A stretch of 64,000 nucleotides of DNA. Origin: Rhodobacteraceae bacterium HLUCCA12 (GTDB taxonomy: Bacteria; Pseudomonadota; Alphaproteobacteria; Rhodobacterales; Rhodobacteraceae). The notes beneath the pieces are model-generated. The model was not told where the DNA came from and did not search any database. It saw nothing but the letters and a program-made list of their open reading frames with translations. This document shows, in pieces, positions 33,310 to 49,034 of this stretch (the first letter of the stretch is position 1; every line of letters begins with the position of its first letter). The position numbers and the translations under genes were made by a program. The stretch covers positions 248,001-312,000 of the forward strand of contig LJSV01000003.1 in the NCBI GenBank assembly GCA_001314715.1, written 5' to 3'.

Positions 33310-34035
33310 TCAGCGGCTGTCGTCGGGCACGAAAGTGCTGAAATCGACCAGCGTTCCCAGCATCTGCATGTAAGCGATGATCGCATCCATCTCGGTCAGT
33401 TCGGGCTGGCCGTCGAAGTTGCGGGTCTGGGCGGAATGATACCGCTCCAGCAGGCCGGAATGATCAGCCTCGGGGTCGGCCTGCGCCAGGAAGTCGGCGC
33501 GGGCGTTTTCCATCATCTCGTCGGTATAGGGATCGCCGATCAGGCGGTGCGTGCCCAGCAGATCCTCGATATGGTCGGCGTCGATCTCGCGATCCATCAG
33601 GAAGGCATAGCTGGGCATGATCGATTCGGGCACCACCGCGCGCGGGTCGATCATGTGCTGCACATGCCAGTCATCCGAATAGCGCCCGCCGATGCGCGCC
33701 AGATCCGGCCCGGTGCGCTTGGACCCCCATTGGAACGGGTGATCGTACATCGATTCGGCGGCGAGGCTGTAATGGCCATAGCGTTCGACCTCGTCGCGCA
33801 TCGGCCGGATCATCTGGCTGTGACAGACGTAGCAGCCTTCGCGCACATAGACCTCGCGCCCGACCAGTTCGAGCGGCGAATAGGGTCGCACGCCCTCGAC
33901 CTCTTCGATCGTGTTTTCCAGATAGAACAGGGGCACGATCTGCACGATCCCGCCGATCGTCACGACCAGGAAGCTGAGAACCAGAAGCAGGGTCGCATGC
34001 TTCTCGATCTTCTTGTGATGGTTGAGAATGCTCAT
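33310..34035 (-). CDS. ccoO: cbb3-type oxidase subunit II (monoheme CcoO)
   Basis: 241 aa. N-terminal membrane anchor ([22 protein letters not shown]), then a monoheme cytochrome c domain with CYVCHSQ and a later methionine ligand region. Transfers electrons from CcoP to CcoN. It lies 12 bp after ccoN. Confidence 0.97.
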
Positions 34036-34047
34036 GACGCCCTCCGG

Positions 34048-35649
34048 TTACTCGGCCGGAACCGCGGCGGCGGCAGGCTTTTTCTCGCCCACGCTCGTCA
34101 CGGTTTTCCAAAGGTTGTAGCACATGATCACGGCGCCCAGCAGGAACATCGTCCCGCCCAGACCACGCACCACATACATCGGGAACTTGGCGGCAACGGT
34201 GTCGGCGAAGCTGTTGACCAGGAAGCCCTGGGCATCGACCTGACGCCACATCAGCCCTTCCATGATGCCGGTCACCCACATCGACGCGGCGTAAAGCACG
34301 ATCCCGATGGTGGCGAGCCAGAAGTGCCAGCTGACAAGCGACAGGCTGTAAAGCCGCTCGCGCTTCCACAGGCGGGGCACAAGGTAATAGAGCATCCCGA
34401 AGGTGATCATGCCGTTCCAGCCCAGCGCGCCCGAATGCACATGGCCGATGGTCCAGTCGGTGTAATGCGACAGGCTGTTCACGGCGCGGATCGACATCAT
34501 CGGACCCTCGAACGTGGCCATGCCGTAAAAGCCCACGGCGACCACCATCATGCGGATGACCGGGTCGGTGCGCAGCTTGTCCCAGGCGCCCGACAGCGTC
34601 ATCAGGCCGTTGATCATGCCACCCCAGGACGGCATCCAGAGCATGATCGAAAAGGTCATGCCCAGCGTCTGCGCCCAGTCCGGCAACGCCGTGTAGTGCA
34701 GGTGGTGCGGACCGGCCCAGATATACAGGAAGATCAGCGCCCAGAAGTGGATGATCGACAGCTTGTAGCTGTAGACCGGGCGTTCGGCCTGTTTGGGGAT
34801 GAAGTAATACATCATCCCCAAAAAGCCCGCGGTCAGGAAGAAGCCCACGGCATTGTGGCCATACCACCACTGCACCATCGCCGATTGCACACCCGACCAG
34901 ACCGGGATCGAGGCCGAACCGAAGATCGACACCGGGATCTGCACGTTATTGACGACATGCAGCATCGCCACGGTGACGATGAATGACAGGTAGAACCAAT
35001 TGGCGACGTAGATATGCGGCTCTCGGCGCTTGATCAGCGTGCCCATGTACACGGCCAGAAGCGCGACCCAGACGATGGTCAGCCACAGGTCGGCCAGCCA
35101 CTCGGGCTCGGCGTATTCCTGGCTCTGGGTCGAGCCCAGCACATAGCCGGTCGCGGCCAGGACGATGAACAGCTGATAGCCCCAGAACACGAACCACGCC
35201 AGGTTTCCGCCCCAAAGGCGCGCGGCGCTGGTGCGCTGAACGACATAGAACGCGCTGGCGATCAGGGCGTTTCCGCCAAAAGCAAAGATCACCGCCGAGG
35301 TGTGTAGCGGACGCAGGCGCCCGAAATTGGCAAAGCCCATCGCGCCTTCGAGGTTCAGGGCAGGCCAGGCAAGCTGAAAGGCGATGACCACGCCCACCAG
35401 AAATCCGACGACCCCCCAGAACGCGGTGGCGATGACGCCATAGCGCACCACCCCGTCAAGATACTCGGCCTGGTTGTGGACAACCGGCGGCTCTCCGACC
35501 CGACGGATCTGCCACAGAAAAAGCCCGGATGCGGTCAGCATGATGATGATCATGTGAACCAGATGGGCGAGATCGCGCGCGTAACTCGCGACGACCGCGG
35601 CCGTGACCGCGACCGCGGCAAGCACGATCAGCTTGACGTAATCCCACAT
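34048..35649 (-). CDS. ccoN: cbb3-type oxidase catalytic subunit CcoN
   Basis: 533 aa heme-copper oxidase subunit I with about 12 membrane helices. Histidine-rich helices include [17 protein letters not shown] and the adjacent Cu(B)/heme histidines in [16 protein letters not shown], without the canonical subunit-I tyrosine of aa3 enzymes. It reduces O2 with high affinity and pumps protons. Head of ccoNOQP, with an FNR box about 113 bp upstream. Confidence 0.98.
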
Positions 35650-35755
35650 GTCTTGCGTCCCTTTGTTCCCTTTGCGGCGTTCCCCGGCCCCCGGTATGCG
35701 GAATGCCGGACCTGCTGCGCCTTCGTCCTTATCCTCAGCGCAGCCTCAGGATACA

Positions 35756-35769
35756 TTGATTCATGTCAA
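35756..35769 (-). promoter_or_regulatory. FNR-type box 1 (ccoN side)
   Basis: TTGAT-TCAT-GTCAA in the 252-bp divergent region between ccoN and the universal stress gene. A ccoN transcript would start near 35721, giving about 70 nt of leader. Confidence 0.75.
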
Positions 35770-35786
35770 GTTGGGAAATTCGGAGC

Positions 35787-35800
35787 TTGATTGAAATCAA
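35787..35800 (+). promoter_or_regulatory. FNR-type box 2 (universal stress protein side)
   Basis: TTGAT-TGAA-ATCAA, a perfect FNR palindrome. A plus-strand transcript would start near 35835, about 67 nt before the universal stress gene. Centre 31 bp from box 1, so the two may also cooperate. Confidence 0.75.
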
Positions 35801-35901
35801 GGACATGGTGATTGTGATGTCGCAGGCTCGGGCTTTGTCAGACATCGTGCCGAACTGCCGCAAGAGCGGCGCAAGCCCCTGAAGCAAAACGAGGAACGAC
35901 C

Positions 35902-36741
35902 ATGGCCTTCAAATCCGTCACCACCTTTCTGAGCAGCGCGGCGGAACTGGACGCCACGATGCCCAGCGCGATCGACTTCGCGCGCAGCATGGACGCCCAT
36001 CTGACCGCCTGTCTTCTGGGCGTCGACATGACACCGGCGGGCGGGTTCTACATGGGAGCATCGCCGCTGTTGCTGCAAGAAACACTTGAACGCGCGCAGA
36101 CCGATGCCGAGGCGCTGGAGGCGCGCGCGCGCAAACGCCTTGACGGCAGCGATTTGCGCTGGGGCACCGAATCGGCGGTCGTTCAGTTCGGCGGGCTGCC
36201 CGGCCTGGTGGGGTTGCGGTCGCGCTTCAGCGACCTGGTGTTGCAGGTCGCCCCCTATGGACGCGATGCGCTGCCGACGCAGGAAGCCGTGATCGAGGCG
36301 GCGCTGTTCGAAGGGCAGTCGGCCACGCTGGTCCTGCCCGAAACGGGGCTGGGCGCGGATTTCGGCAAGCGCGTGGTGGTGGCCTGGAACCAGTCGAACG
36401 AGGCGTTGAATGCGGTGCGCCGCGCGCTGCCCCTGCTGAAACAGGCCGAACTGGTGAATATCGTGGTGGTCAACCCGCCGGTGCACAGCCCCGAACGCTC
36501 GGACCCCGGCGGCCTGCTGACGCAGATGCTGGCGCGCCACGGCGTGCGGGCCGAGGTGTCGGTCCTGGCCAAGACCCTGCCAAGGGTCTCGGACGTGCTG
36601 ATGCGCCATATCGAGGATACGGATGCGGGGCTTCTGGTGATGGGCGCCTATGGCCATTCGAGGCTGCGCGAGGCGATCCTGGGCGGCGCGACACGAAACG
36701 TGCTGGAAAACGCGCAGACCCCGGTGTTCCTGGCGCATTGA
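35902..36741 (+). CDS. Universal stress protein (tandem UspA-like)
   Basis: 279 aa. The C-terminal UspA domain ends LLVMGAYGHSRLREAILGGATRNVLENA, carrying the ATP-binding G-x2-G-x9-G-(S/T)-like motif. The N-terminal half looks like a second, degenerate Usp unit. Many such genes are induced by oxygen limitation; the perfect FNR box upstream supports that here. GAGGAA precedes the ATG. Confidence 0.85.
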   Translation: MAFKSVTTFLSSAAELDATMPSAIDFARSMDAHLTACLLGVDMTPAGGFYMGASPLLLQETLERAQTDAEALEARARKRLDGSDLRWGTESAVVQFGGLPGLVGLRSRFSDLVLQVAPYGRDALPTQEAVIEAALFEGQSATLVLPETGLGADFGKRVVVAWNQSNEALNAVRRALPLLKQAELVNIVVVNPPVHSPERSDPGGLLTQMLARHGVRAEVSVLAKTLPRVSDVLMRHIEDTDAGLLVMGAYGHSRLREAILGGATRNVLENAQTPVFLAH

Positions 36742-36766
36742 CCGGGCGGCGCGGTCGGCCACGGCG

Positions 36767-36838
36767 CAGGGGGGCTTTCCGCCCCCCTCTTCGGCTGCGC
36801 CGAATTCACCCCCCGAGCGTATTTTCGGCAAGATGAAG
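36767..36838 (+). repeat. Intergenic hairpin repeat, copy E
   Basis: GGGGGGC-TTTCC-GCCCCCC, then TTCGGC-TGC-GCCGAA (a different but still self-complementary second hairpin), TTCACCCCCC and tail GCGTATTTTCGGCAAGATGA. Between the convergent usp and fnrL, co-oriented with usp. Confidence 0.85.
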
Positions 36839-36866
36839 GAGCGACGGAGCGCCGCAAAATCGCCTG

Positions 36867-37622
36867 TCAGACAAGGAACCCGCCATCGGCATCGTCGCCG
36901 GCCTCTTCGACCAGGCGATCGAAATCGGGGATGGTGATGTGGCGCTTGCCTTCGATCTCGATGATCCCGTCGCGGCGCAGGGCCGAGATCTGACGGCTCA
37001 CGGTTTCGAGGGTCAGGCCCAGGTATTCCGACATCGCCTCGCGCGTCAGGGGCAGATCGACGACGACCGCGCCGGCTTCGCGCTGATTGTTGAGCGAGGC
37101 ATCGCGCCGGGCAATGATGGCGATCAGGCTGGCGATCTTTTCGCGCGCGGTCTTGCGGCCCAAAAGCAGCATCCATTCGCGTGCCGCATCCAGTTCGTCG
37201 AGCGTCATTTCCAGAAGCCGCTGGCCCACATGCGGGGTGGTCAGCATGACATCCTCGAACGGTTTCTTGCGAAAGCAGCACATCACCAGGTCCGAGGTCG
37301 CGGTGACGTCATAGGCCGCCGTTTCGCGCCCCGGCCGGCCCACGAAATCCGAGGGCAGCAAAAGGCCGACCATCTGGCGGCGCCCGTCCTCCATCGTCTG
37401 GGTCAGGGTTGCGATGCCCGACACGACCGATGCGACGAAATCCATACGGTCGCCCGACCAGACCACGGTCTGACCGGCCTCGAAGCTGCGATAATACTTG
37501 ATCTCTTCGAGGCGGCGAAGCTCGTCATCCTCGCATCGTGCGCAGACGGCACGATGGCGGATCGGGCAATCGCCGCAGTTCAAATGGACCGTTTTGGCCG
37601 GGGCAGCAGAAGTTTTGTACAT
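36867..37622 (-). CDS. fnrL: Crp/Fnr family regulator FnrL
   Basis: 251 aa. Four N-terminal cysteines (16, 19, 27, 30 in NCGDCPIRHRAVCARC) plus a central CC (115-116) can bind the O2-sensing 4Fe-4S cluster. The C-terminal HTH has the FNR-type recognition helix ETVSRQISAL. It is the expected anaerobic/microaerobic activator of cco and hem genes. There is no Shine-Dalgarno: an FNR box lies four bases before the ATG, so FnrL binding there should block, not activate, its own gene. Confidence 0.94.
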   Translation of the reverse strand: MYKTSAAPAKTVHLNCGDCPIRHRAVCARCEDDELRRLEEIKYYRSFEAGQTVVWSGDRMDFVASVVSGIATLTQTMEDGRRQMVGLLLPSDFVGRPGRETAAYDVTATSDLVMCCFRKKPFEDVMLTTPHVGQRLLEMTLDELDAAREWMLLLGRKTAREKIASLIAIIARRDASLNNQREAGAVVVDLPLTREAMSEYLGLTLETVSRQISALRRDGIIEIEGKRHITIPDFDRLVEEAGDDADGGFLV

Positions 37623-37625
37623 GGT

Positions 37626-37639
37626 TTGATCTATATCAA
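37626..37639. promoter_or_regulatory. FNR box shared by fnrL and hemN
   Basis: TTGAT-CTAT-ATCAA, perfect palindrome in the 51-bp gap between the divergent fnrL and hemN. Its centre is 41.5 bp from the A of the hemN ATG. Confidence 0.8.
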
Positions 37640-37673
37640 GGCTCGCAACGGCGCGAGGGCTGATCCTAACGAA

Positions 37674-39029
37674 ATGAACACTGACTCGCAACTCGCCGGG
37701 CTAGGCCTTTTTGACGCGCGCGTGCCGCGATACACGAGCTATCCCACCGCGCCGCAATTCTCCGCCGCGGTGGGGGAATCGCAATTCGTGGACTGGCTGC
37801 GTGCCATCGCACCAGATAGCCGGATCTCGCTCTATATCCATGTGCCGTTCTGCCGCAGGCTGTGCTGGTTTTGCGCCTGCCGCACGCAGGGCACCAGCAC
37901 CGACGCCCCCGTCGTCGCCTATGTCGAGCATCTCAAGGCCGAGCTTGCGCTGCTTGGCCGGATCCTGCCCGAGGGCGTTACGCTGTCACGCCTGCACTGG
38001 GGCGGCGGAACGCCGACGCTGCTGCCGCCCGAGCAGATGCGCGATCTGTCGCGTGCGATCTTCGACATCGCCCCCCTGGGCACGGCGGCCGAATTCTCGG
38101 TCGAGATCGACCCCAACGAGATCGACGCGGCACGGCTGGACGCGCTGGCCGAGGCGGGGATGAACCGCGCCTCGATCGGGGTGCAGGATTTCGATGCCGA
38201 GATTCAGAAGACGATCGGGCGCGACCAGAGCTATGAGATCACCCGCGATGCGGTCGAGGCGATCCGCGCCCGCGGGGTGACGAGCCTGAATGCCGATATC
38301 CTGTATGGATTGCCGCACCAGACCCGCTCACGGGTGTCGGATTCGGTTCAGAAACTGCTCTCGCTCGCGCCCGACCGGGTGGCGCTTTATGGCTATGCCC
38401 ATGTGCCCTGGATGGCCCGGCGGCAACAACTGATCCCGTCGGACACGCTGCCGCGCCCCGAAGAACGGCTTGAGCTGTTCGAAACCGCGCGCCAGCTTTT
38501 TGCCTGGGACGGCTATCGCGAGATCGGCATCGACCATTTCGCCCGCCCCACGGACGGGCTTGCGATTGCGGCCGATCAGGGCACCTTGCGGCGCAACTTT
38601 CAGGGGTACACCGATGACACGGCGCCGGTTCTGGTCGGGCTTGGCGCCTCGTCGATCTCGCGCTTTCCGCAGGGCTATGCGCAGATGAACCCATCGACAT
38701 CGGGTTGGGTCAAGGCCGTGCAGGCGGGCCATTTCGCCACGACGCGCGGACACGCCTTTCAAGGCGACGACCTGTTGCGCGGACGGATCATCGAGGCGCT
38801 GATGTGCGACTTCACGGTCGACAAGACCGCCCTGATCGCGGATTTCGGCGCCTCTCCGGCCCAGCTGGACGATCTGTTCAGGCCCGTGGCGGAAAAATTC
38901 GGCGACTTTGTCACCGATGATGCGCAGCACTTTACCATACCGGCGCGCGGCCGACCGCTGGCGCGCATGATCGCCGCCGGGTTCGACGGGTATGCGATGG
39001 CGCGCACCGGGCATTCGACGGCCGTCTGA
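37674..39029 (+). CDS. hemN: Oxygen-independent coproporphyrinogen III oxidase
   Basis: 451 aa radical-SAM enzyme. The CxxxCxxC motif is Cys60, Cys64 and Cys67 in FCRRLCWFCACR. GGGTPTLL and the HemN C-terminal domain follow. It oxidatively decarboxylates coproporphyrinogen III without O2, supplying heme for the cbb3 oxidase. The MNTDS start has only a distant AGGG; the FNR box geometry places the transcript start at or next to the ATG, so the message may be leaderless. Confidence 0.95.
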   Translation: MNTDSQLAGLGLFDARVPRYTSYPTAPQFSAAVGESQFVDWLRAIAPDSRISLYIHVPFCRRLCWFCACRTQGTSTDAPVVAYVEHLKAELALLGRILPEGVTLSRLHWGGGTPTLLPPEQMRDLSRAIFDIAPLGTAAEFSVEIDPNEIDAARLDALAEAGMNRASIGVQDFDAEIQKTIGRDQSYEITRDAVEAIRARGVTSLNADILYGLPHQTRSRVSDSVQKLLSLAPDRVALYGYAHVPWMARRQQLIPSDTLPRPEERLELFETARQLFAWDGYREIGIDHFARPTDGLAIAADQGTLRRNFQGYTDDTAPVLVGLGASSISRFPQGYAQMNPSTSGWVKAVQAGHFATTRGHAFQGDDLLRGRIIEALMCDFTVDKTALIADFGASPAQLDDLFRPVAEKFGDFVTDDAQHFTIPARGRPLARMIAAGFDGYAMARTGHSTAV

Positions 39030-39060: not shown

Positions 39061-39843
39061 TCACTGACCGGCGGGGCGCGGGGCGAACGGAAGGCTGCTG
39101 GACAGCCCGCCGTCGATCACCAGAACCTGGCCGTTGATATAGGACGCTGCATCGGACGCCAGAAAGGCCACGGCCTCGGCGACCTCGTCCGCTTCGCCTC
39201 CGCGCTGCAAGGGGTTGAGCTGGCCGATCCTGTCGCCGCGACCGCGTCGGCGCGCGGCGTCGTAGAGCGGGGCGGTCATCGGCGTCTCGATCAGACCGGG
39301 GGCGACGGCATTGATGCGAATGCCGCGCCCCGTCAATGCCGCCGCGACCGTCTGGACCATGTTGATGACGCCGGCCTTGGACGCGGAATAGGGGATGCCC
39401 CCCGCGCCCGCCCGCAACCCGGCCGCCGAGGCGGTGCAGACGATCGAGGCGCCCGCCTGCATATGCGGCAGCGCCGTCGTGATCGCGAGCCAGGGGCCGA
39501 TCAGGTTGATGCGCAGGATCTCGGCGAAGTCCTTTGAATCGGTGGCAAGGTCGGGGATCAGGGGCCCGGAGACACCGGCATTGGCATGCAGGATGTCGAG
39601 CCGGCCGAAAGCGGCGATCGCCTGATCGGTGATGCGCTGCGCGCCGTCGTCACTGGCGCAGTCGGCCACAACCGCCTCGACCCGGCCACCGGCCTGGCGG
39701 ATCAGTTCGGCGGTCTCCGCGACCGACGGATTGCGGTCGGCCGCGACCACGGCCGCGCCACGCTCGGCCAGAAGGCGCGCCGTCGCGCGGCCGATACCAC
39801 CGGCGGCGCCGGTGACAACGGCGACCTTGCCCGAAAGGGTCAT
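39061..39843 (-). CDS. SDR family oxidoreductase (LvaD-like context)
   Basis: 260 aa classical short-chain dehydrogenase. Cofactor motif [20 protein letters not shown], the catalytic serine region CTASAAG and YSASK with Tyr/Lys. An aspartate after the second strand (AADRN) favours NAD(H). The start overlaps the acyl-CoA dehydrogenase stop as ATGA, so the two act together. With the APH kinase opposite, a 4-hydroxyacyl/4-oxoacyl-CoA role is possible. Confidence 0.88.
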
Positions 39844-41099
39844 TGCGGCAAGCCGCGCGACGTGACCATCGGCGTCCAGCCCGGATGGTTCAGACCCTTG
39901 CGCTTGCGCAACTCAAGGCGGGCGAGCTGATCGCGATGCACTTCGTCGGGGCCATCGGCAAGCCGGATCACCCGCGCAATGGCATAGGCGATCGCGGTGC
40001 CGAAATCGTTGCCGGTGCCGCCGCCGCCAAACACCTGAATGGCCCAGTCGGTGACCTTGCAGGCCATGTTCGGCACGGCGATCTTGATCATGGCGATCTC
40101 GGCGCGGGCCTCCTTGTTGCCGACGGTGTCCATCTTGTGGGCGGTGTGCAGCGTCAGCAGGCGGCATTGGTCGATCATGATGCGCGCCTCGGCGATGCGT
40201 TCGCGCGTGACCGACTGGTCGGCGACCGGCTTGCCAAAGGCCACGCGCTGCATGGCGCGGTCGATCATGTTTTCCAGCGTGCGTTCGGCCAGGCCGATCA
40301 GACGCATGCAATGGTGAATGCGGCCCGGCCCCAGTCGGCCCTGCGCGATCTCGAAACCGCGGCCCTCGCCCAGCAGCATGTTGCTGGCCGGGACGCGAAC
40401 ATTCTCGAACACCACTTCCGAGGCGCGGTCAGGCACGCCGTAATACCCGAATACGGGCAACGACCGGACGACGCGCACGCCGGGGGCGTCCATCGGCACA
40501 AGGATCATGCTTTGCTGCTTGTGCCGGTCGGGGTTGTCGGGGTCGGTCTTGCCCATGAAGATGCAGATCTTGCAGGCCGGGTTCGACGCGCCGGTCGTGT
40601 ACCATTTTCGGGCATTGATGACGTAGTCATCGCCGTCGCGGCGGATCTCGGCCTGGATATTGGTGGCATCGGATGAGGCGACATCGGGTTCGGTCATCGC
40701 AAAGCAAGAGCGGATCTTGCCGTCGAGCAAGGGCGCCAGCCATTGCTGTTTCTGCGCCTCGGTGCCGTAGCGTTCCAGCACTTCCATGTTGCCGGTGTCA
40801 GGCGCATTGCAGTTGAACACCTCGGGCGCCAGCAGGGAACGGCCCATGATCTCGCACAGGCGGCCGTATTCGACATTGCTCAGCCCCGCGCCGCGTTCGC
40901 TGTCGGGCAGGAACAGGTTCCAGAGCCCGGCTTCGCGCGCCAGCGGTTTCAGTTCCTCGATGACCGGATAGACACGAAACGGTCCCAGCTCCTCGGCCTC
41001 GCGGAAATAGCGCGCTTCGTTGGGATAGATGTGGCGGTCCATGAAGTCGGCGAGCCGGGTTTCCAGCTCAAGGACGCGGGCAGTCTTGTCAGGGATCAT
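39840..41099 (-). CDS. ACAD10/11-like acyl-CoA dehydrogenase
   Basis: 419 aa FAD acyl-CoA dehydrogenase. [40 protein letters not shown], the block [16 protein letters not shown] and the end [17 protein letters not shown] follow the ACAD10/ACAD11 branch rather than fatty-acid dehydrogenases of ordinary beta-oxidation. In animals these domains act with an APH kinase on 4-hydroxyacyl-CoAs. Its 3' end is coupled to the SDR, and an APH gene diverges 122 bp upstream. Confidence 0.9.
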
Positions 41100-41221
41100 G
41101 GCGGGCTCCTCTTTGCGGGCAGCGTAGCGCCTGGCATAACATCTGACAAGATCGTCTGACGATTAAACTTGCCACCGCGCCCACGCACCGGCATTCTGGA
41201 CGCAACGGGCAGGAGGACGAA

Positions 41222-42244
41222 ATGGCCGAAGCGGAACTCGATGCGTGGATGGCGCAGAATGTGGCCGGGTATCGCGGGCCCTTGACGCTGCACCGGCTGT
41301 CGGGCGGGCAGTCGAACCCGACCTGGCGGATCGAGGCGGCCAGCGGGCGCTACGTGTTGCGCCAGAAACCGGTGGGCAACGTGCTGCCCTCGGCACATCA
41401 GGTGGACCGTGAGTATCGCGTGATGAAGGCGCTGGCACCGACGCCGGTGCCGGTGCCCCGTGTCCTGGCCCTGTGCGAGGATACGGCCGTCATGGGGTCG
41501 ATGTTCTTTGTCATGGACCATATCGAAGGCCGGACCCTGTTCGACCCGCGCCTGCCCGGACTTGCGGCATCGGAACGCGCGGCGATCTTCGATCAGATGA
41601 ACCAGGCGATCGCCGCGATCAGCTTGGTGGACCCGGTCGCGGTGGGGCTGGACGATTACGGGCGCCACGGCGGCTATGTGCAGCGCCAGATCAGTCGTTG
41701 GACAAAGCAGTATCGCGCCAGCGAAACGCAGCCGATCCTGTCGATGGATGCCCTGATCGACTGGCTGCCGCAGAACATGCCCGACACGCCCGAAGAGGTC
41801 CGCCTGGCGCATGGCGATTTCCGGCTGGACAACCTGATCCTGCATCCCAACGAACCCCGCGTGCTGGCGGTGGTGGACTGGGAGCTGTCGACACTGGGCT
41901 GCCCCTTTGCCGATTTTGCCTATAACGTGATGGCCTGGCGGATCGCGCCGGGGCTCTTCCGCGGGCTGGGCGGCGTCGATCTGGCCGGCACGGGAATACC
42001 GAGCGAAGATGCCTATATCGACCTCTGGTGCCAGAGAACCGGGCGCAGACGGCCCGAGAATTTCGACTTCTACATCATCCTCAGCATGTTTCGGATCGCC
42101 GCGATCCTGCAAGGAATCGCGCGGCGCGCGCTGGATGGCACCGCCGCCGACCCCAAGGCGGCCGAGATGGGGGCCAAGGCCGCCCCGCTTGCCGATATCG
42201 CTTGGGATATGGCACGGCGTCTGAACGGGTCGGCGTCGTCGTGA
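41222..42244 (+). CDS. APH-family kinase, ACAD10/11 N-domain/LvaA type
   Basis: 340 aa aminoglycoside-phosphotransferase fold. RLSGGQSNPTWRI nucleotide loop, the invariant lysine in LRQKPVG, the Brenner motif AHGDFRLDNLI and the metal aspartate in VDWELSTLG. As a stand-alone protein beside an ACAD10/11-like dehydrogenase it probably phosphorylates the hydroxyl of a hydroxyacyl-CoA rather than an antibiotic. AGGAGG precedes the ATG. Its stop overlaps the GTG start of the GntR gene. Confidence 0.88.
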   Translation: MAEAELDAWMAQNVAGYRGPLTLHRLSGGQSNPTWRIEAASGRYVLRQKPVGNVLPSAHQVDREYRVMKALAPTPVPVPRVLALCEDTAVMGSMFFVMDHIEGRTLFDPRLPGLAASERAAIFDQMNQAIAAISLVDPVAVGLDDYGRHGGYVQRQISRWTKQYRASETQPILSMDALIDWLPQNMPDTPEEVRLAHGDFRLDNLILHPNEPRVLAVVDWELSTLGCPFADFAYNVMAWRIAPGLFRGLGGVDLAGTGIPSEDAYIDLWCQRTGRRRPENFDFYIILSMFRIAAILQGIARRALDGTAADPKAAEMGAKAAPLADIAWDMARRLNGSASS

Positions 42245-42900
42245 ACTCGCATCCCGGCAAGCCCCACCCATCCGGTCCCGAGACCCTGGTGCGCGATATC
42301 CTGCACGGCCTGTCCGAGGGCCGCTTTGCGCCCGGCCAGCGGTTGGCGGAACCCGACCTGATGGCGCGATACGGTGTCGGGCGCTCGACCGTGCGTGAGG
42401 CATTGGGCCGGCTTGCGGCGGGTGGCGTGGTGACGCTGGCCCCGCATCGGGGCGCGCATATCCGGCTGCTGACCCGGCGGGAAACGGCCGATGTGCTGCG
42501 CGTGTCCGAATATCTGTTGGGTCTGGCGGCACGGCAGGCGGCCGAGGCGGTGCTGGCAGGTGGCGATCCGTCGCGACTGGTCGCCGCCGCCGACGCCTAT
42601 ACCCATGCGGATGCCGCAACCGAATCGCGTGCGCGCGCCCGCTATTACCGGGCGCTGATCGAACTCGGCGGCAACAGTGAGCTGGAGCGTCTGTTGCCCG
42701 CATTGCAAGTGCATCTGATCCGCGCGCAATTGCGGTCATCGCGCCACGCCAGCGCCGAAAACGAGCGCGCGGCCCTGGTGGCCGCGATCCGCGCGGGACA
42801 GCCCGGCACGGCGGAACGCACCGCGCGCATCCCGATTGCCACACTCATCGCGCGGCTGGACGATTTGCCCGACAGCGCCTTTGCCGCCGAGGGCGGATGA
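42241..42900 (+). CDS. GntR family regulator (FCD type)
   Basis: 219 aa. Winged helix LVRDILHGLSEGRFAPGQRL with recognition helix GVGRSTVREALGRLAAGG, then an all-helical FCD effector domain. It starts with GTG overlapping the kinase stop (GTGA), so it is made together with the kinase and probably controls this island. The ligand is likely an organic acid or acyl-CoA (inference). Confidence 0.88.
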   Translation: MNSHPGKPHPSGPETLVRDILHGLSEGRFAPGQRLAEPDLMARYGVGRSTVREALGRLAAGGVVTLAPHRGAHIRLLTRRETADVLRVSEYLLGLAARQAAEAVLAGGDPSRLVAAADAYTHADAATESRARARYYRALIELGGNSELERLLPALQVHLIRAQLRSSRHASAENERAALVAAIRAGQPGTAERTARIPIATLIARLDDLPDSAFAAEGG

Positions 42901-42967: not shown

Positions 42968-43660
42968 ATGAGATTTGATCAATTTCAGGCGCCGGGGATG
43001 CACAGCTCCGACAACCCACCGTTTCTTGCCAAGCTGCCCGAGCACGAATCGACCTATCGCCGGCTGCGCGACATGGTTTTGTTCGGCGACATGGCGCCTG
43101 GCCAGAAGGTCACGATCCAGGGGATCACGCGCGCACTTGAGGCGGGCATGACCCCCGTGCGCGAGGCGATCCGGCGGCTGACCGCCGAAGGCGCACTGGA
43201 GTTGCATGAGAACCGCCGCGTTTCGGTGCCACGGCTGACCCCGTCGCAACTTGAGGAAATCGCCTTTGCGCGCCTTGCGCTTGAACCCCGGCTGGCGCGG
43301 GGCGCAGTGGCGCGCATGCAGCCCGCCGATATCGACCGCCTGGCGCAAATCGACCGCGAGATCGACGCGGCCATCGCCGATGTCGATGTCCACCGGTATC
43401 TGGCCGGAAACTTCCGGTTTCACTTTGCCCTGTACGAGCTTGCCGATGCGCCGATCCTGTTGTCGCTGACGCAATCGCTTTGGCTTCGGTTCGGGCCGTC
43501 GCTTCGCGTGGTGATCGAAAGCGAGGCCAGCATCGGCCCCGACCGCCACCGCGACGCCGTCGCCGCGATGCGGCAAAACGATGCCCGCGCCCTGTCCGAG
43601 GCGATCGAAGCCGACATTGCCCAAGGGATGGAGCGCGTGCGCGCCGAATTGGGTGCGTAA
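42968..43660 (+). CDS. GntR family regulator (FCD type) of the aminotransferase operon
   Basis: 230 aa. HTH (YRRLRDMVLFGDMAPGQKVTIQGI, recognition helix GMTPVREAIRRLTAEGALEL) and FCD domain with histidines DVHRYLAGNFRFHFALY. A TTTGATCAATTT half-palindrome lies inside the first codons; if the ATG at 42998 is the true start it becomes a normal upstream operator. The same motif occurs twice before the next gene, so this protein probably binds there. Confidence 0.88.
   Translation: MRFDQFQAPGMHSSDNPPFLAKLPEHESTYRRLRDMVLFGDMAPGQKVTIQGITRALEAGMTPVREAIRRLTAEGALELHENRRVSVPRLTPSQLEEIAFARLALEPRLARGAVARMQPADIDRLAQIDREIDAAIADVDVHRYLAGNFRFHFALYELADAPILLSLTQSLWLRFGPSLRVVIESEASIGPDRHRDAVAAMRQNDARALSEAIEADIAQGMERVRAELGA
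42973..42985. promoter_or_regulatory. Putative GntR operator (TTTGATCAATTT)
   Basis: Core TTGATCAA at 42975-42982 at the start of the gntR gene, shared with the sites at 43676-43717. Suggests autoregulation. Confidence 0.55.
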
Positions 43661-43675
43661 CGAACGGGCGCAATA

Positions 43676-43717
43676 ATTTGATCAAATCCATTGCGGGCCG
43701 GCAGATTTGATCATAAT
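43676..43717. promoter_or_regulatory. Tandem GntR operators upstream of aminotransferase gene
   Basis: A perfect 12-bp palindrome ATTTGATCAAAT at 43676-43687 and a second site ATTTGATCATAAT at 43705-43717, centres 29 bp apart, 55-95 bp before the aminotransferase ATG. Confidence 0.6.
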
Positions 43718-43770
43718 CTGGCGCGAACCGAATCTGCCCGGCCAACGCCGGGCCAGCAGAGGATGCCGCC

Positions 43771-45165
43771 ATGCCCACAATCACCAACCACATGCCCACG
43801 GCCGAACTTCAGGCGCTGGATGCCGCGCATCACATGCACCCGTTCACCCAGAACGCGGGGCTGGCCAAGAAAGGCGCGCGGATCATCACGCGGGCCAGCG
43901 GCGTGACCCTGACCGACAGCGAAGGCCACGAGATCATCGACGCCATGGCCGGCCTTTGGTGCGTGAACATCGGCTATGGCCGCAAGGAAATGGCCGCCGT
44001 CGCCGCGCGCCAGATGGAAGAGCTGCCCTATTACAACACCTTCTTTCAGACCTCGCATGTGCCCGCGATCGCGCTGGCCAACCGGATCGCCGAGCTGGCG
44101 CCGGGTGATCTGAATCACGTGTTCTTCGCCGGCTCCGGCTCTGAGGCAAACGACACCAATATCCGCATGGTCCGCCACTACTGGGCGCTCAAGGGGAAGC
44201 CCGAAAAGTCGGTCATCATCAGCCGCAAGAATGCCTATCACGGCTCTTCCATGGGCAGCGGCAGCCTTGGGGGCATGGCGGCGATGCATGCGCAGGGCGG
44301 CATGCCGATCCCCGACATCGTTCATATCGACCAGCCGAACTGGTATTCTGAAGGCGGCGATCAGACGCCCGAGGACTTCGGGCTTGAACGCGCGCGGCAA
44401 CTGGAGGCCAAGATCAAGGAGCTGGGCGCCGACCGGGTGGCCGCCTTCATCGGAGAGCCGGTGCAGGGGGCGGGCGGCGTGATCGTGCCGCCTGCGACCT
44501 ATTGGCCCGAGATCCAGCGCATCTGCGACAAATACGGCATCCTGCTGATCGCCGATGAGGTGATCTGCGGATTCGGCCGCACCGGCAACTGGTTCGGCAG
44601 CCAGACGATGGGCATTCGCCCCCATATCATGACCATCGCCAAGGGCCTGTCGTCGGGCTATGCGCCGATCGGCGGGTCCATCGTCTGTGACGAGGTTGCG
44701 AATACCATCGCGCAGGACGAATTCAATCACGGCTACACCTATTCCGGCCACCCGGTCTGCGCCGCCGTCGCGCTGGAGAATTTGCGCATCATCGAGGAAG
44801 AGGGGATCATCGACCATGTCCGCGACGTGGCCCATCCCTATCTTGCCGAAAGCTGGCATGCGCTGGGCGACCATCCCCTGGTCGGCGAAACCAAGCTGGT
44901 CGGGTTGATGGGATCGCTGGCGCTGTCGCCCGACAAGGCGCGCCGCGCGCCCTTCGCGGCCGAGGCCGGCACCGTCGGCTATATCGTGCGCGAGCGGTGC
45001 TTTGCCAACAACCTGGTCATGCGCCATGTCGGCGACCGGATGATCATTTCGCCGCCGCTGGTCATCACCCCCGCCCAGATCGACACGTTGATCGAACGCG
45101 CGACCCGCGCCTTTGACGAGGCCTATGCACAGGTCAAGGCCGAAGGCTTGATGAAAGCGGCCTGA
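43771..45165 (+). CDS. Class III aminotransferase (putrescine/omega-amino acid:pyruvate type)
   Basis: 464 aa PLP enzyme. HPFTQNAGLAKKGARIITRASG at the N-terminus, FAGSGSEANDTNIRM, NAYHGSSMGSGSLGG, DEVICGFGRTG and the PLP lysine Lys291 in TIAKGLSSGYAPIGG. This is the SpuC/beta-alanine-pyruvate branch. With the FAD oxidase that follows it probably degrades a polyamine or omega-amine; the exact substrate is not settled. The stop overlaps the oxidase ATG (TGATG). Confidence 0.88.
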   Translation: MPTITNHMPTAELQALDAAHHMHPFTQNAGLAKKGARIITRASGVTLTDSEGHEIIDAMAGLWCVNIGYGRKEMAAVAARQMEELPYYNTFFQTSHVPAIALANRIAELAPGDLNHVFFAGSGSEANDTNIRMVRHYWALKGKPEKSVIISRKNAYHGSSMGSGSLGGMAAMHAQGGMPIPDIVHIDQPNWYSEGGDQTPEDFGLERARQLEAKIKELGADRVAAFIGEPVQGAGGVIVPPATYWPEIQRICDKYGILLIADEVICGFGRTGNWFGSQTMGIRPHIMTIAKGLSSGYAPIGGSIVCDEVANTIAQDEFNHGYTYSGHPVCAAVALENLRIIEEEGIIDHVRDVAHPYLAESWHALGDHPLVGETKLVGLMGSLALSPDKARRAPFAAEAGTVGYIVRERCFANNLVMRHVGDRMIISPPLVITPAQIDTLIERATRAFDEAYAQVKAEGLMKAA

Positions 45166-46466
45166 TGGACCTGTTGACCGCCAACGACCGGCCGGGGGAA
45201 TACCCGCGTTCCTGGTATGCCGAGACCGCGGAACCCCTGGCGCCTCAACCCGCCGCCGAAGGGGCGCTGAGCTGCGATGTCTGCGTGATTGGCGGCGGGT
45301 TCACCGGTTTGTCGGCTGCGCTGCATCTGGCCGAGCGCGGCTATGACGTCATCTTGCTGGAAGGGCAACGGCTGGGCTTTGGTGCGTCGGGGCGCAACGG
45401 CGGCCAGGTCGGCACCGGCCAGCGGCTGGACCAGGACGCGCTGGAATCCATGGTCGGCAAGACCGCGGCGCGCGCGCTGTGGGATCTGTCGCTGGAATCG
45501 GTCGCACTGGTGCGCGACCTGGCCGCGCGCCATGCCCCCGATGCAGGCTATGCCGCTGGCATCATCCATGCCGCGCACAAGCCCGGCCACGTGCGCGACA
45601 GCCACGCCTATGCCGAAAAGATGGCGCGCGATTATGGCTATGACCTGATCCGCCCGCTGTCGCGCGACGAGATGCGCGCCATGGTCGGCTCGCCTGCCTA
45701 TCACGGCGGCGATATCGACATGGGCGGCGGGCATCTGCATCCGCTGCGCCTTGCGCTGGGCATGGCGCGCGCGGCGCAGTCCGCCGGGGTGCGCCTGTTC
45801 GAGCAATCACGCGTGACCGCGCTGACCAAGGGCGATCCGGCCCTGATCGAAACCGACCGCGCGCGGATCACCGCGCGGTTCGTGGCGATGGGCTGCAACG
45901 GCTATCTGGGGCGGCTTGATCCGGGTGTCGCGGCGCGGGTGATGCCGATCAACAATTTCATCGCCGCAACCCGGCCGATGCGCGACGACGAACGGCGCGC
46001 GGTGATCCGCGACAACCACGCGGTGGCCGATACCAAGTTCGTCATCAACTACTTCCGCTTTTCCGAGGACAATCGCCTGCTGTTCGGCGGCGGCGAAAGC
46101 TATGGCTACCGGTTTCCGGCCGACATCGCCGCCAAGGTTCGCAAACCGATGGAGGCGATCTTTCCACAGCTTGCGGGCATCGAGATCACGCATGCCTGGG
46201 GCGGAACGCTGGGCATCACCTTCAACCGCATGCCGCATTTCGAGCGGCTGGCCGGCAATGTGCTGTCGGCCTCGGGCTATTCCGGCCACGGTGTCGCCAT
46301 GGCAACGCTGGGCGGCAAGCTGCTGGCCGAGGCGCTGAGCGGTCAGGCGGAGCGCTTTGACATCATGGCATCGGTGCCCAGCCCCCGGTTTCCGGGCGGC
46401 GCATCGTTGCGCTGGCCGCTGCTGGTGGCGGCGATGGTCTGGTTCTCGCTGCGCGACCGGCTCTGA
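45165..46466 (+). CDS. FAD-dependent amine/amino-acid oxidase (PuuB/DAO type)
   Basis: 433 aa. Rossmann GGGFTG at 43-48 with LLEGQRLGFGASGRNGGQVG, the DadA/PuuB flavin-binding opening, then a DAO-type substrate domain with RMPHFERLAGNVLSASGYSGHGV near the C-terminus. Oxidises a primary or secondary amine. Homologues include gamma-glutamylputrescine oxidase and glycine oxidases. Coupled to the aminotransferase. Confidence 0.87.
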   Translation: MDLLTANDRPGEYPRSWYAETAEPLAPQPAAEGALSCDVCVIGGGFTGLSAALHLAERGYDVILLEGQRLGFGASGRNGGQVGTGQRLDQDALESMVGKTAARALWDLSLESVALVRDLAARHAPDAGYAAGIIHAAHKPGHVRDSHAYAEKMARDYGYDLIRPLSRDEMRAMVGSPAYHGGDIDMGGGHLHPLRLALGMARAAQSAGVRLFEQSRVTALTKGDPALIETDRARITARFVAMGCNGYLGRLDPGVAARVMPINNFIAATRPMRDDERRAVIRDNHAVADTKFVINYFRFSEDNRLLFGGGESYGYRFPADIAAKVRKPMEAIFPQLAGIEITHAWGGTLGITFNRMPHFERLAGNVLSASGYSGHGVAMATLGGKLLAEALSGQAERFDIMASVPSPRFPGGASLRWPLLVAAMVWFSLRDRL

Positions 46467-46699: not shown

Positions 46700-47503
46700 G
46701 TGACAGATACAAGACGCCGGGCCTTGATGCTCGGCCTGGGATCATGGTGCCTGGCCAATGCCGGGGTGTCGCTGGCAACACCGGCGCAGGGGCGAACGGC
46801 GACGCCCGCGGCCATGCCGCGGCTGACGCGGGCACATGGTGTCATCAACCTGAGCCGTGTCGAGACCGATCGCCCGCAGGTGGCGTTGACCTTCGATGAC
46901 GGCCCCCATCCGCAACACACGCCGCGTCTGCTGGACATTCTGGCCGAACACCGGGTGCGGGCCACGTTCTATGTGATCGGATCGCTTGTGCACCGCTATC
47001 CCGCGATTGTGCAGCGAATCGTTGCCGAAGGGCATGAGCTGGGTAACCACACATGGGCCCATCCGACGCTGAGCCGACATGGCGATCACCGCATCCTGTC
47101 CGAGATCGACCGCACGCAGGAAATCATCTGGCAAACCACGGGCCATCTGCCGGTCACCTTTCGCCCGCCCTATGGTGCGATCACACCCCGACAAAGCCGG
47201 ATGCTGCATGCAAGCCGCAATCTGCCGACCGTGGTCTGGTCCGTCGATCCGCAGGACTGGCGGCGCCCCGGCCCGGCGGTGGTCGCGCAGCGCATGCTCC
47301 AGGGCGCAGGGCCCGGCGCGATCATCCTGGCGCATGACATCCACGCCGCCACGGTCGCGGCCGTCCCCGAAGCGCTGAACGGACTGTATCGGCGTGGGCT
47401 GGACTGCGTTACACTGTCCGAACTGATCGGCTGGGGGCGCTGGGGGCCAGAGGCCCCGTATCGCCACCGGATCGCCGGCGCGGGAAGCCGCCGGACCGGC
47501 TGA
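46700..47503 (+). CDS. Polysaccharide deacetylase (NodB domain), exported
   Basis: 267 aa. Starts with GTG after CGGGGGACG. A basic N-terminus (TDTRRRALMLGLGSW) and hydrophobic stretch look like a signal peptide, possibly Tat-like. The NodB domain has TFDDGPH (metal Asp), HTWAHPT (metal His pair), RPPYGA and a late LAHDIH. It would remove N- or O-acetyl groups from a cell-wall or exopolysaccharide. No lipobox seen. Confidence 0.87.
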   Translation: MTDTRRRALMLGLGSWCLANAGVSLATPAQGRTATPAAMPRLTRAHGVINLSRVETDRPQVALTFDDGPHPQHTPRLLDILAEHRVRATFYVIGSLVHRYPAIVQRIVAEGHELGNHTWAHPTLSRHGDHRILSEIDRTQEIIWQTTGHLPVTFRPPYGAITPRQSRMLHASRNLPTVVWSVDPQDWRRPGPAVVAQRMLQGAGPGAIILAHDIHAATVAAVPEALNGLYRRGLDCVTLSELIGWGRWGPEAPYRHRIAGAGSRRTG

Positions 47504-47597
47504 ACCGGCGCCGTGCACCGGAGGCTGCATCGCAGGCGAAAATTCGCGCGCATTAGGGTATAGTGAAATCAGGCAGGCGAAGGCGGTTTGATAAAAA

Positions 47598-47638
47598 AAC
47601 TTTCGGAAACTGACATACAGGCTTCACAAACGAAAGTT
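47598..47638. promoter_or_regulatory. Inverted repeat AACTTTCG/CGAAAGTT upstream of ugpB
   Basis: Eight-base perfect inverted repeat with a 25-bp spacer in an AT-rich region 76-117 bp before ugpB. DeoR/GlpR-type operators in related bacteria contain TTTCG/CGAAA halves, so a carbon-source repressor is a possibility (inference). Confidence 0.4.
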
Positions 47639-47714
47639 ATCGCAGCAAAGTGCACAAATTCGCGCACGTCGCGACAATGAACGCACAAGGATTTTGCAAC
47701 AGAAGGGGTCTTCA

Positions 47715-49034
47715 ATGATCATCCGTAGTCTTCTTGCCGGAACGGCGCTGTCGCTGAGCTTCGCGGCTTCCGCGAATGCCCAGGTGACGATCAACTGGTG
47801 GCACGCCATGGGTGGCGAGCTGGGTGAGCTGCTTGAGGAAGTGGCCGAAGGCTTCAACGAATCGCAATCCGATTACGAGGTCGTGCCCAACTTCCGCGGC
47901 ACCTATGCCGAAACCATGACCGGTGCCATCGCCGCGTTTCGCGCCAATGAACAGCCGCACGTCCTTCAGGTTTTCGAAGTCGGCACCGGCACCATGATGG
48001 CCGCCGAAGGGGCGATCTATCCGATCTATCAGTTGATGGAAGATTTCGACGTGCCCTTCGACCCCGAGGCATATCTGCCCGCCGTGGTCGGCTATTACAC
48101 CGATCCGGACGGCAACATGCTGTCGTTCCCGTTCAACTCGTCCACGCCGATCATGTACTACAACAAGGACATGTTCGAAGAGGCCGGACTTGACCCGGAA
48201 AGCCCGCCCGAAACCTGGGCCGAAATGGAAGAATACTCGCGCGAGATCGTCGAATCGGGTGCGGCGCCCTGTGGGTTCACCACCTCCTGGCCAAGCTGGG
48301 TCATGCTTGAGAACTTCTCGGCCTGGCACAACCTTCCGCTGGGGACGCAGGCCAACGGCTTTGGCGGCTTCGACACCGAATTCACCTTCAACAACGAGCA
48401 TGTCGCGCGCCACTGGGACAACCTGGCGGACTGGCAGGAAGACGACATCTTCCGCTGGGGCGGCCCGAACACCGGCGCCGATGCGTTCCCGGCGTTCTAT
48501 GCGGGCGAATGCGCGATGGTCTTCGGCTCGTCGGCCAGCCGCGCCGGCGTTCTGTCCAATACCGATTTCAGTGTCGGCTACGGCTTCCAGCCCTATTACG
48601 ACGACATCGAGGGCGCGCCGCAGAACTCGATCATCGGTGGTGCCACGCTCTGGGTTCTGACCGGCCATTCGGATGAGGAATATGCGGGCATCGCGCGCTT
48701 CTTCGAATACCTGTCCGAGCCCGAGGTTCAGGCCTTCTGGCACCAGGAAACCGGCTATCTGCCGATCACCCAAGCCTCGTACGAGTTGAGCGCCGAAGAA
48801 GGGTACTATGACGAAAACCCGGGCGCCGACACCTCGATCAAACAGATGACGCTGAATGAGCCGACCGAGAATTCGCGCGGCCTGCGTTTCGGCAACTTCG
48901 TCCAGATCCGCGACATCATTTCCGAAGAGATGGAAGCGGTGATGTCCGGTTCGAAATCGGGCGAGGAAGCCACCGAGGATGCGGTCAGCCGCGGCAACGC
49001 CCTGCTGCGTGAGTTCGAAGCCTCGATGAACTGA
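47715..49034 (+). CDS. ugpB: sn-Glycerol-3-phosphate-type ABC substrate-binding protein UgpB
   Basis: 439 aa. Signal peptide [22 protein letters not shown], then [36 protein letters not shown] and [14 protein letters not shown], all diagnostic of UgpB. Periplasmic receptor for glycerol-3-phosphate and glycerophosphodiesters. AAGGGG precedes the ATG. Followed by a strong intercistronic hairpin and then ugpAEC, so the binding protein is probably made in excess. Confidence 0.93.

Follow-up and report, generated by a model that had tools for sequence, protein, structure and literature searches.

As the enzymes by which mammals break down 4-hydroxy acids, ACAD10 and ACAD11 were reported only in 2024–2025. 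In Pseudomonas putida, the lva operon (lvaABCDEFG) for levulinate is reported to encode an SDR (LvaD), a kinase (LvaA) and an acyl-CoA dehydrogenase (ACAD; LvaC) (PMC9399607, PMC6692424); its regulator, LvaR, is a sigma54-dependent protein, and loss of lvaE does not abolish growth of P. putida on levulinate (PMC6692424). Orthologues of LvaA (accession Q88G01 in PMC11342911) and LvaC from Burkholderia pseudomallei can replace the halves of ACAD10 in vitro, and the available part of that report describes replacement of the ACAD10 kinase by the LvaA orthologue with no mention of LvaB (PMC11342911). In the literature searched, levulinic acid, GntR and acyl-CoA dehydrogenase were nowhere treated together, and 4-hydroxyacyl-CoA was combined with kinase, acyl-CoA dehydrogenase and bacteria only in work on ACAD10/11; judged by title, the matches listed held no other work on these enzymes in bacteria.

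A sequence-only reading of a 64,000-nucleotide stretch from Rhodobacteraceae bacterium HLUCCA12 (hereafter, the window) had pointed to four genes as a possible 4-hydroxyacyl-CoA catabolic module. Trees, kept residues and near-perfect co-occurrence across genera support that proposal, and we consider it probable that the four genes constitute one self-regulated module with the chemistry and the GntR switch described below. The locus would represent a small bacterial version of the mammalian system with separate enzymes. Its boundary and its own predicted operator are new with respect to the previous reading.

Gene organization of the locus

ORFs for the four proposed genes were found at 39061–42900, and their assignment to the SDR, ACAD, APH and GntR families was upheld by Pfam:

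39061–39843, minus strand: SDR, classical oxidoreductase, 260 aa (ORF, Pfam and motifs)
39840–41099, minus strand: dehydrogenase of the ACAD10/11–LvaC type, 419 aa, predicted 4-phosphoacyl-CoA phospho-eliminating enzyme (fold, residues and tree)
41222–42244, plus strand: APH-fold kinase of the ACAD10/11 type, 340 aa, predicted to phosphorylate 4-hydroxyacyl-CoA (Pfam, residues and tree)
42241–42900, plus strand: FadR/FCD-like GntR regulator of 219 aa, predicted to repress the divergon (Pfam; start overlapping the APH stop)

The Pfam matches were adh_short_C2 (3e-60) for the SDR, Acyl-CoA_dh_1 (3.7e-35) for the ACAD, APH (5.5e-49) for the kinase and GntR (9.6e-16) for the regulator, in which the FCD domain was weak (25.0 bits versus a cut-off of 24.3). 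The regulator was read from the GTG at 42241 to 42900; a longer frame with the same end was also listed, and the short form was used in Pfam and the other comparisons. Inspection of the sequence located the two couplings described previously, an ATGA overlap between the ACAD stop and the SDR start and a GTGA overlap between the APH stop and the GntR start. The module is a conserved, compact gene set that very probably serves to burn fatty acids with a C4 hydroxyl, and its natural substrates may include levulinate, 4-hydroxyvalerate, gamma-lactones and longer 4-hydroxy acids.

The dehydrogenase and the kinase resemble ACAD11

The closest solved relative of the ACAD was ACAD11 (8v3u, 468.9 bits; 55% identity to the mouse protein), and no match from outside the ACAD11/4hr3 group exceeded the 144.4 bits of FadE3. 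Residues R255, R260, H263-C-M-R266 and D382 corresponded to ACAD11 R626, R631, H634-C-M-R637 and D753, such that all five compared active-site residues were kept; in ACAD11, ACAD activity suffered most when R626, H634 or R637 was replaced by alanine or leucine (PMC12440821). Trees were constructed from rows chosen for spread (66 in the quick tree and 36 in the careful tree, neither with an LvaC or ACAD10 row). In the careful tree, whose outgroup ACADs were long-branched, the ACADs bearing HCMR or HAMR, including that of the window, lay on one side of a branch with 99/96 support (33/36 rows). The ACAD10/11 pattern noticed earlier is thereby borne out and, judged from these comparisons, the dehydrogenase is a member of the ACAD10/11–LvaC class.

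The best solved relative of the kinase was 3dxp (407.9 bits), followed by the kinase part of ACAD11 (261.6 bits; 40% identity to mouse ACAD11), and the window genome contained no other match to this kinase at E ≤ 0.001. Removal of identical sequences and of those covering fewer than 250 profile positions from 181 kinase ORF hits left 139 rows, including four typed ones, of which 82 entered the quick tree and 44 the careful tree. In the latter, which had no LvaA or ACAD10 row, a clade designated type A (support 99/98, 24/44 rows) joined the window kinase to mouse ACAD11 and to Ralstonia and Burkholderia kinases, separately from the kinases adjoining DUF6285 genes. This supports the earlier view of the kinase as the stand-alone counterpart of the animal fusion partner. 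Trees with ACAD10, ACAD11, LvaA and LvaC had been suggested: grouping of both proteins with ACAD11 was obtained, from trees in which ACAD10 and the P. putida proteins were missing. D199 and N204 matched the catalytic Asp and Asn of ACAD11 (D220 and N225), and R155 matched its CoA-contacting Arg (R176). R63-E64 was matched to R86, the other Arg for CoA, by context alone, as an Arg beside the helix-C Glu, because the printed number misfits the chain numbering. We take D219 to be the second metal Asp. Both proteins thus retain residues whose importance in ACAD11 has been demonstrated or modelled.

Of the two mammalian enzymes, the locus shares with ACAD11 the kinase clade, the ACAD class and the compared active-site residues. 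Animals fuse these two enzyme types, whereas in the window they are separate, divergently transcribed genes accompanied by an SDR and a GntR regulator; ACAD10 has in addition a HAD domain that is missing here. B. guangdongensis (L196) is presumably a near relative of B. pseudomallei, and we take its kinase and ACAD genes to be orthologues of the pair tested in vitro. Their products share the kinase clade and the HCMR group of the window proteins; in contrast to the divergent window pair, the two genes lie on one strand with no GntR match seen.

The automatic names of both proteins are generic, as they would be if a beta-oxidation dehydrogenase of the ordinary kind happened to adjoin an unrelated kinase for small molecules or antibiotics. 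We regard this explanation as extremely improbable, considering the HCMR and Asp residues, the trees and the co-occurrence described below, and the kinase scored only 38.4 against the APH(3′) NCBIfam model, the cut-off of which is 205.

Conservation and co-occurrence of the genes

Within the genus, the divergent ACAD/kinase pair was kept in 15/18 genomes, the SDR adjoined the ACAD in all 14 testable loci (the window included) and GntR was kept in 13/15 loci, indicating that the arrangement reflects more than chance. Among 120 genomes of the family, one per genus, 70 carried both enzymes, four the kinase only, none the ACAD only and 46 neither, when the kinase was counted at E ≤ 0.001 and the ACAD at E ≤ 1e-60 (Fisher p 6e-29, a value that ignores kinship among genomes). 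With both at 1e-60, 68 genomes had both, two the kinase only, two the ACAD only and 48 neither (p 2e-28, likewise ignoring kinship).

ACAD and kinase are nevertheless not always one unit. Among 80 ACAD loci, the best 80 of 593 relatives and without P. putida, 32 had no APH gene in the sequence stretch examined, several of these stretches ending at contig ends. Six genomes were searched beyond the ACAD locus, and each contained a kinase 47–61% identical somewhere; in two of them (G693 and G695) a different ACAD of the family lies close to it, which it may serve instead of the lone ACAD. A substitute kinase beside kinase-less ACADs was sought in ten neighbour genes of six loci, and the only kinase-like candidate, an HPr-kinase-like gene in Tistrella, fell below the Pfam cut-off (32.4 versus 33.3 bits) and was rejected.

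Relationship to the levulinate pathway

LvaB probably belongs, we assume, to the DUF6285 family (PF19802). The absence of an LvaB partner and of an acyl-CoA ligase had been noted: the DUF6285 profile detected nothing in the whole window genome (2/14 control genomes were positive), and no acyl-CoA ligase such as LvaE occurs among the module's own genes. It had also been suggested that the locus is a reduced version of the pathway. This is unnecessary, since the kinase belongs to the ACAD10/11 type, grouping with ACAD11 and apart from the DUF6285-linked kinases, and a missing LvaB need not mean reduction; the in vitro replacement of the ACAD10 kinase and the growth of P. putida without lvaE, both cited above, point the same way. 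An ACAD10/11-type kinase is the likely reason why some bacteria manage without LvaB.

The locus could instead belong to a true levulinate pathway whose ligase and other steps are encoded elsewhere in the genome. Its SDR, kinase and ACAD belong to the same families as LvaD, LvaA and LvaC, as previously claimed and as taken from the publications rather than from direct sequence comparison (PMC9399607, PMC6692424), and the dispensability of lvaE in P. putida would be compatible with a ligase outside the cluster. However, the genome has no LvaB-type protein, the kinase clade differs, a GntR regulator stands beside the module genes in place of an LvaR-type activator, and levulinate is just one possible 4-oxo acid; we consider this pathway rather unlikely.

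Proposed reactions and the role of the SDR

The reactions of the kinase and the ACAD are inferred with high confidence. The kinase would phosphorylate the 4-hydroxyl of 4-hydroxyacyl-CoA with ATP, and the ACAD would eliminate the phosphate, with FAD as a transient redox partner, to give a 2-enoyl-CoA that would enter beta-oxidation. The SDR would either feed this pathway by converting 4-oxoacyl-CoA to 4-hydroxyacyl-CoA, or act downstream on 3-hydroxyacyl-CoA.

The SDR contains a TGxxxGIG motif at position 11 and Ser139/Tyr152/Lys156. By analogy with LvaD, it most likely reduces 4-oxoacyl-CoA. That it is instead a 3-hydroxyacyl-CoA dehydrogenase ending the first turn of beta-oxidation, in a module that takes ready-made 4-hydroxy acids, is a sizeable, if lesser, possibility. 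An Asp at a position such as Asp36 is a sign of NAD(H) preference, and Asp36 suggests NAD(H) use, as would suit that role; on a Sphingobium plasmid the ACAD gene is overlapped by one encoding a 3-hydroxyacyl-CoA dehydrogenase, with further such cases among the matches listed, and, of 230 NCBIfam models matched, the SDR reached the curated cut-off of none of the 25 shown. Against it stand the LvaD precedent and related loci, such as that of Marinobacter, in which one cluster contains two different SDRs; the latter arrangement suggests that both roles may be needed.

A predicted operator between the divergent operons

Comparison of the intergenic regions led us to propose the following elements:

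41121–41126, minus strand: proposed −10 box TACGCT of the ACAD–SDR promoter, 17 bp from its −35 box
41143–41150, plus strand: extra half-site CTGACAAG adjoining the palindrome and holding the proposed minus-strand −35 box TTGTCA (41144–41149)
41151–41163: predicted GntR operator ATCGTCTGACGAT, a 13-bp palindrome flanked by the −35 boxes proposed for the two divergent promoters
41169–41197, plus strand: proposed APH–GntR promoter (−35 TTGCCA, 17 bp, −10 CATTCT), from locus comparison

A strict consensus scan for sigma-70 sites found no promoter in the region. The ACAD–SDR −10 box reads TAGGCT in 9/17 loci compared, and the APH–GntR −35 box contains TTGAC in 13/15 palindrome-bearing loci.

The palindrome was present at all 13 GntR-bearing loci of the genus (11 exact, two with one mismatch) and at neither of the two loci without GntR (G126 and G129), which may be sisters and then count as one loss. 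It was the sole exact copy in 10/18 genus genomes, and the window genome has one exact copy; a larger regulon built on further copies was rejected. In one Mesorhizobium, whose 8.4 Mb contain a single exact palindrome, that copy is flanked by the gene of a GntR orthologue (49%) and the ACAD gene. Where the palindrome is missing, so is the coupled GntR, and the two recur together. At the Haematobacter pair (L154) the regulator is of the AraC type and the site merely degenerate. In G009 the module site has one mismatch, and the single exact palindrome is found inside a short open frame away from the module; G135 (70% complete) has seven exact palindromes, six away from the module, and the five loci examined, one of them the module, had no common theme.

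With its spacing of 3 nt from GT to AC, the palindrome agrees with the pattern published for the FadR subfamily, and weaker half-sites have been described 7–12 nt from the centre of GntR-family sites (PMC4494728). Like the FadR/FCD divergons described there, the locus combines this palindrome with an accessory half-site, some 11 nt away from the centre, and with divergent operons; the regulator carries GntR and FCD domains and has a TNGT-N3-ACNA-like palindrome at its own divergon, but its FCD match is weak, barely above the cut-off.

A second GntR gene (GntR2, 42968–43660) also encodes an FCD regulator, and either its product or another regulator might bind the palindrome instead of the coupled GntR. 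This is very unlikely: GntR2 had no match above 80 bits in 14 other genus loci (stretches of 3.7–20 kb), yet the palindrome stays in 12/14 of them, and the palindrome and the coupled GntR are absent jointly and recur jointly. We therefore retain the coupled GntR, which would bind ATCGTCTGACGAT between the −35 boxes, repress both operons along with its own gene, and be released when a pathway metabolite is present; repression rather than activation is what we infer.

FCD domains usually carry metal-binding histidines. These seem absent in the GntR orthologues, a difference from the usual FadR/FCD divergons. More speculatively, and with no great likelihood, the locus might be a dedicated single-operator switch for 4-hydroxy and 4-oxo acids, whose GntR, with an FCD pocket that seems to lack the usual metal ligands, senses an acyl-CoA or 4-phosphoacyl-CoA intermediate and not the free carboxylate. 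Under such a switch the kinase would be made only together with the eliminating ACAD, so that 4-phosphoacyl-CoA would never accumulate. If true, this GntR would, in the literature searched, be the first transcription factor besides LvaR tied to ACAD10/11 chemistry. The predicted operator could be used to find inducers, making the question of the natural substrate testable.

The adjoining aminotransferase, oxidase and second GntR genes (42968–46466) were rejected as module members because they were not kept at the genus loci. As for GntR2, no match above 80 bits to the aminotransferase was found in the 14 other loci (stretches of 3.7–20 kb); a distant relative of the oxidase (27–28%) lay some kb away in 5/14.

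Organization of the gene cluster

In the window, drawn from an assembly of 52 contigs (3,725,513 bases in total), an ORF listing and domain searches placed four genes in a divergent arrangement:

39061–39843, minus strand: SDR
39840–41099, minus strand: acyl-CoA dehydrogenase (ACAD), ACAD10/11-like
41222–42244, plus strand: APH-fold kinase
42241–42900, plus strand: GntR regulator, GTG start at 42241

These are the coordinates and families that the sequence-only reading had given, and the stop/start overlaps that it had proposed, ATGA for ACAD/SDR and GTGA for APH/GntR, are both present in the sequence. Its interpretation of the genes as a 4-hydroxyacyl-CoA module is likewise favored by the residues, trees and co-occurrence described below. 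The enzyme kind of the ACAD and kinase is known; what is new is an LvaB-less divergon with an SDR and a predicted GntR switch.

The dehydrogenase retains five ACAD11 active-site residues

The best solved relatives of the ACAD were ACAD11 (468.9 bits) and 4hr3 (467.9 bits), and the best match outside this group scored 144.4 bits. Identity to the dehydrogenase part of mouse ACAD11 was 55%. In ACAD11, R626, H634 and R637 are reported to lie at the 4-phosphate, R631 to orient the substrate and D753 to act as the base, and Ala or Leu at R626, H634 or R637 affected the ACAD step most severely (PMC12440821). Alignment matched these residues to R255, H263, R266, R260 and D382 of the window ACAD, all five being kept (the PDB chain numbering used equals the paper's number minus one at the compared sites), and the five positions were invariant across 13 aligned bacterial members. 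A careful tree built from 36 rows placed 33 HCMR/HAMR rows, including ACAD11 and the window ACAD, on one side of a branch (support 99/96); the outgroup was three other ACADs from the same genome, and the program warned of its long branches. This division was reproduced, as 55 versus 11, in a quick tree with 66 rows. Among the loci examined, the closest named divergent ACAD/kinase pair was that of Haematobacter massiliensis (Rhodobacterales), with 73% and 62% identity.

A second ACAD10/11-like dehydrogenase, 44% identical to the window's and carrying the motif RLGPARIHHCMR, lies on another contig of this genome (C28:70654–71814; 3570–4865 of fetched locus L070, also L002) near genes for a class III CoA-transferase, an IclR regulator and a TRAP transporter. 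Since the genome holds one kinase match of this type, either both ACADs share the kinase or the second does other work.

The kinase and the absence of LvaB

The kinase was 40% identical to the kinase part of mouse ACAD11 and contained the catalytic residues D199 and N204, as well as D219. A careful tree of 44 rows separated three types, A, B and C (supports 99/98, 99/98 and 100/100). Type A (24 rows) included the window kinase, mouse ACAD11, Ralstonia 3dxp and Burkholderia guangdongensis, which we take to be a near relative of the assayed B. pseudomallei; type B (10 rows) comprised Deinococcus, Bacillus and others with PDB 9o56; and type C (10 rows) comprised kinases adjoining DUF6285. Of the tree placement proposed earlier, grouping with the mouse ACAD11 row was obtained for both ACAD and kinase. 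P. putida LvaA is reported to be 29% identical to ACAD10/11, and other bacterial relatives 51% and 38% (PMC11342911).

A genome-wide search found no DUF6285, which we assume to be the LvaB family, in the window's genome, in agreement with the earlier remark that LvaB is absent. Across the phylum, 38 of 398 genomes contained DUF6285. At 30 short DUF6285 loci (L124–L153), an APH kinase was found by tblastn at 28 (24–33% identical to the window's) and by profile at all 30; the ten of these kinases placed in the careful tree formed a distinct clade, and an HCMR-type ACAD above 100 bits was present at one of the 30 loci only (L147). If DUF6285 is LvaB, the LvaB-needing kinases would be those of type C, and the window kinase would lie outside them. 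The sequence-only reading took the absence to mean a possibly reduced or different version of the pathway; given the separation of type A from the DUF6285-linked type C, reduction need not be invoked. The B. pseudomallei kinase substitutes for that of ACAD10 in vitro, LvaB being unmentioned in the accessible part of that report (PMC11342911), and a levulinate cluster of P. citronellolis lacks lvaB in the analysed region (PMC6692424). For these three reasons, the absence of LvaB need not mean decay.

In Deinococcus (L157, 8235–10023; histidine phosphatase) and Marinobacter (L231, 8276–10116; SurE), the gene after the kinase is of phosphatase type, and ACAD10 carries a HAD domain. A histidine phosphatase is also reported near lvaA in P. 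citronellolis (PMC6692424). A phosphatase may be a recurrent partner of this kinase type.

By comparison with ACAD10/11 and LvaA/LvaC, the kinase would phosphorylate the 4-hydroxyl of a CoA thioester and the ACAD would remove the phosphate to yield a 2-enoyl-CoA. The SDR could convert 4-oxoacyl-CoA to 4-hydroxyacyl-CoA, as LvaD does; by analogy, we give this role about even odds, the alternative being that the SDR acts later in the pathway. CoA activation would have to be supplied by a ligase from outside the module. In principle this need not stand in the way, because P. putida without lvaE is reported to grow on levulinate (PMC6692424).

Conservation of the module

A full ACAD of at least 82% identity was found in 14 of 18 genomes of the genus, the window's included; genome G135 had a cut copy, and the remaining three are 64–82% complete assemblies. 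The kinase was divergent from the ACAD at 15/15 genus loci, GntR followed the kinase at 13/15, and the SDR followed the ACAD at all 14 loci where the contig extends far enough. Within the stretches covered at the 14 other genus loci, the second GntR and the class III aminotransferase of the window had no match above 80 bits, and its downstream oxidase had only a 27–28% relative, at five; the window's downstream genes are therefore not kept with the module. The same block was present in two other genera (G250, G141). It was rearranged in genome G009, whose kinase (L082, 9789–10765) matched in two overlapping frames, either because the gene is disrupted or through misassembly. When the best eight candidates per genome were scored, 14 of 295 family genomes, including two of this genus, had an SDR match at 1e-50 or better, so the SDR looks largely specific to this module version. 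A 44% SDR relative lay near the ACAD at three Marinobacter loci and one Halopseudomonas locus.

A predicted operator between the divergent genes

ACAD and kinase are separated by 122 bp, within which lies CTGACAAG-ATCGTCTGACGAT at 41143–41163, an extra half-site (41143–41150) followed by a palindrome (41151–41163). In an alignment of the gap from 17 loci, this stretch was the best conserved among the 15 loci with GntR, with the longest run of columns (17) at 85% or more. Two promoters read in the sequence are proposed from conservation, because a strict sigma-70 consensus scan found neither:

TTGTCA–17 bp–TACGCT, minus strand: proposed ACAD-side promoter
TTGCCA–17 bp–CATTCT, plus strand: proposed kinase-side promoter

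The palindrome, flanked by the two proposed −35 boxes, directly adjoins the extra half-site, which carries the proposed ACAD −35. It was present at 13/13 genus loci with GntR (11 exact; one mismatch in G122 and G133) and missing at both loci without GntR, G126 and G129, whose whole genomes had no GntR match at E ≤ 1e-20; these losses may be a single event. Across the 18 genus genomes, the exact palindrome occurred as a single copy at the module in ten, not at all in seven and in seven copies in G135, a 70% complete assembly (loci L118, L120–L123); a reversed control pattern occurred in none. In Mesorhizobium sp. L-8-3, the ACAD gene (73%) and that of a GntR orthologue (49%) are divergently oriented without a kinase. 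The exact palindrome lies in between, its only copy in 8.4 Mb. G009 encodes a 44% identical GntR and has ATCGTTTGACGAT upstream of the ACAD, and a Haematobacter pair has an AraC-type gene in place of GntR and only a degenerate site.

Since the site stands against two −35 boxes, the simplest reading is that GntR would act as a repressor at this predicted operator. The usual FCD domains bind metal through histidines, which the GntR orthologues seem to lack. The palindrome has the GT–3 nt–AC spacing, and likewise an accessory half-site, described for sites of the FadR subfamily (PMC4494728).

Co-occurrence of dehydrogenase and kinase

Among 120 family genomes, one per genus, the kinase matched in 74 (E ≤ 0.001) and the ACAD in 70 (E ≤ 1e-60): both in 70, kinase alone in four, ACAD alone in none and neither in 46 (Fisher p = 6e-29, kinship ignored), four kinase matches being weak at the looser cut-off. 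With both at 1e-60, the counts were 68 with both, two with the kinase alone (G004, G102), two with the ACAD alone (G037, G083) and 48 with neither (p = 2e-28, kinship ignored). At 80 named ACAD loci, the best of 593 relatives, an APH gene lay within the fetched stretch at 48 (same strand in 41) and was not seen at 32, where some stretches stop at contig ends. A kinase 47–61% identical was present somewhere in all six named genomes searched, in five of which none was beside the ACAD. Of four such kinase places inspected in three genomes, three (L264, L265, L267) had a different ACAD of the family nearby and one was alone (L266), so these kinases are at most candidate partners for the lone ACADs. 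The strict count and the results from G009 and from Mesorhizobium and Camelimonas are points against the module reading and do not shift the odds that we give it.

In Mesorhizobium sp. L-8-3, the ACAD and GntR orthologue that share the predicted operator (L167, 5034–7257) have no adjacent kinase, and the two best kinases of the genome are near other ACADs.

Neighboring genes in the window

As read from translations, 32145–39029, which adjoins the module, carries cbb3-type oxidase genes together with genes for a universal stress protein, a HemN-like protein and a regulator of the FNR type. At 46700–49034, a gene for a polysaccharide deacetylase (130.5 bits in Pfam; NodB, its top NCBIfam match, stayed under the cut-off) precedes one for a UgpB-type glycerol-3-phosphate binding protein that scores over its NCBIfam cut-off.
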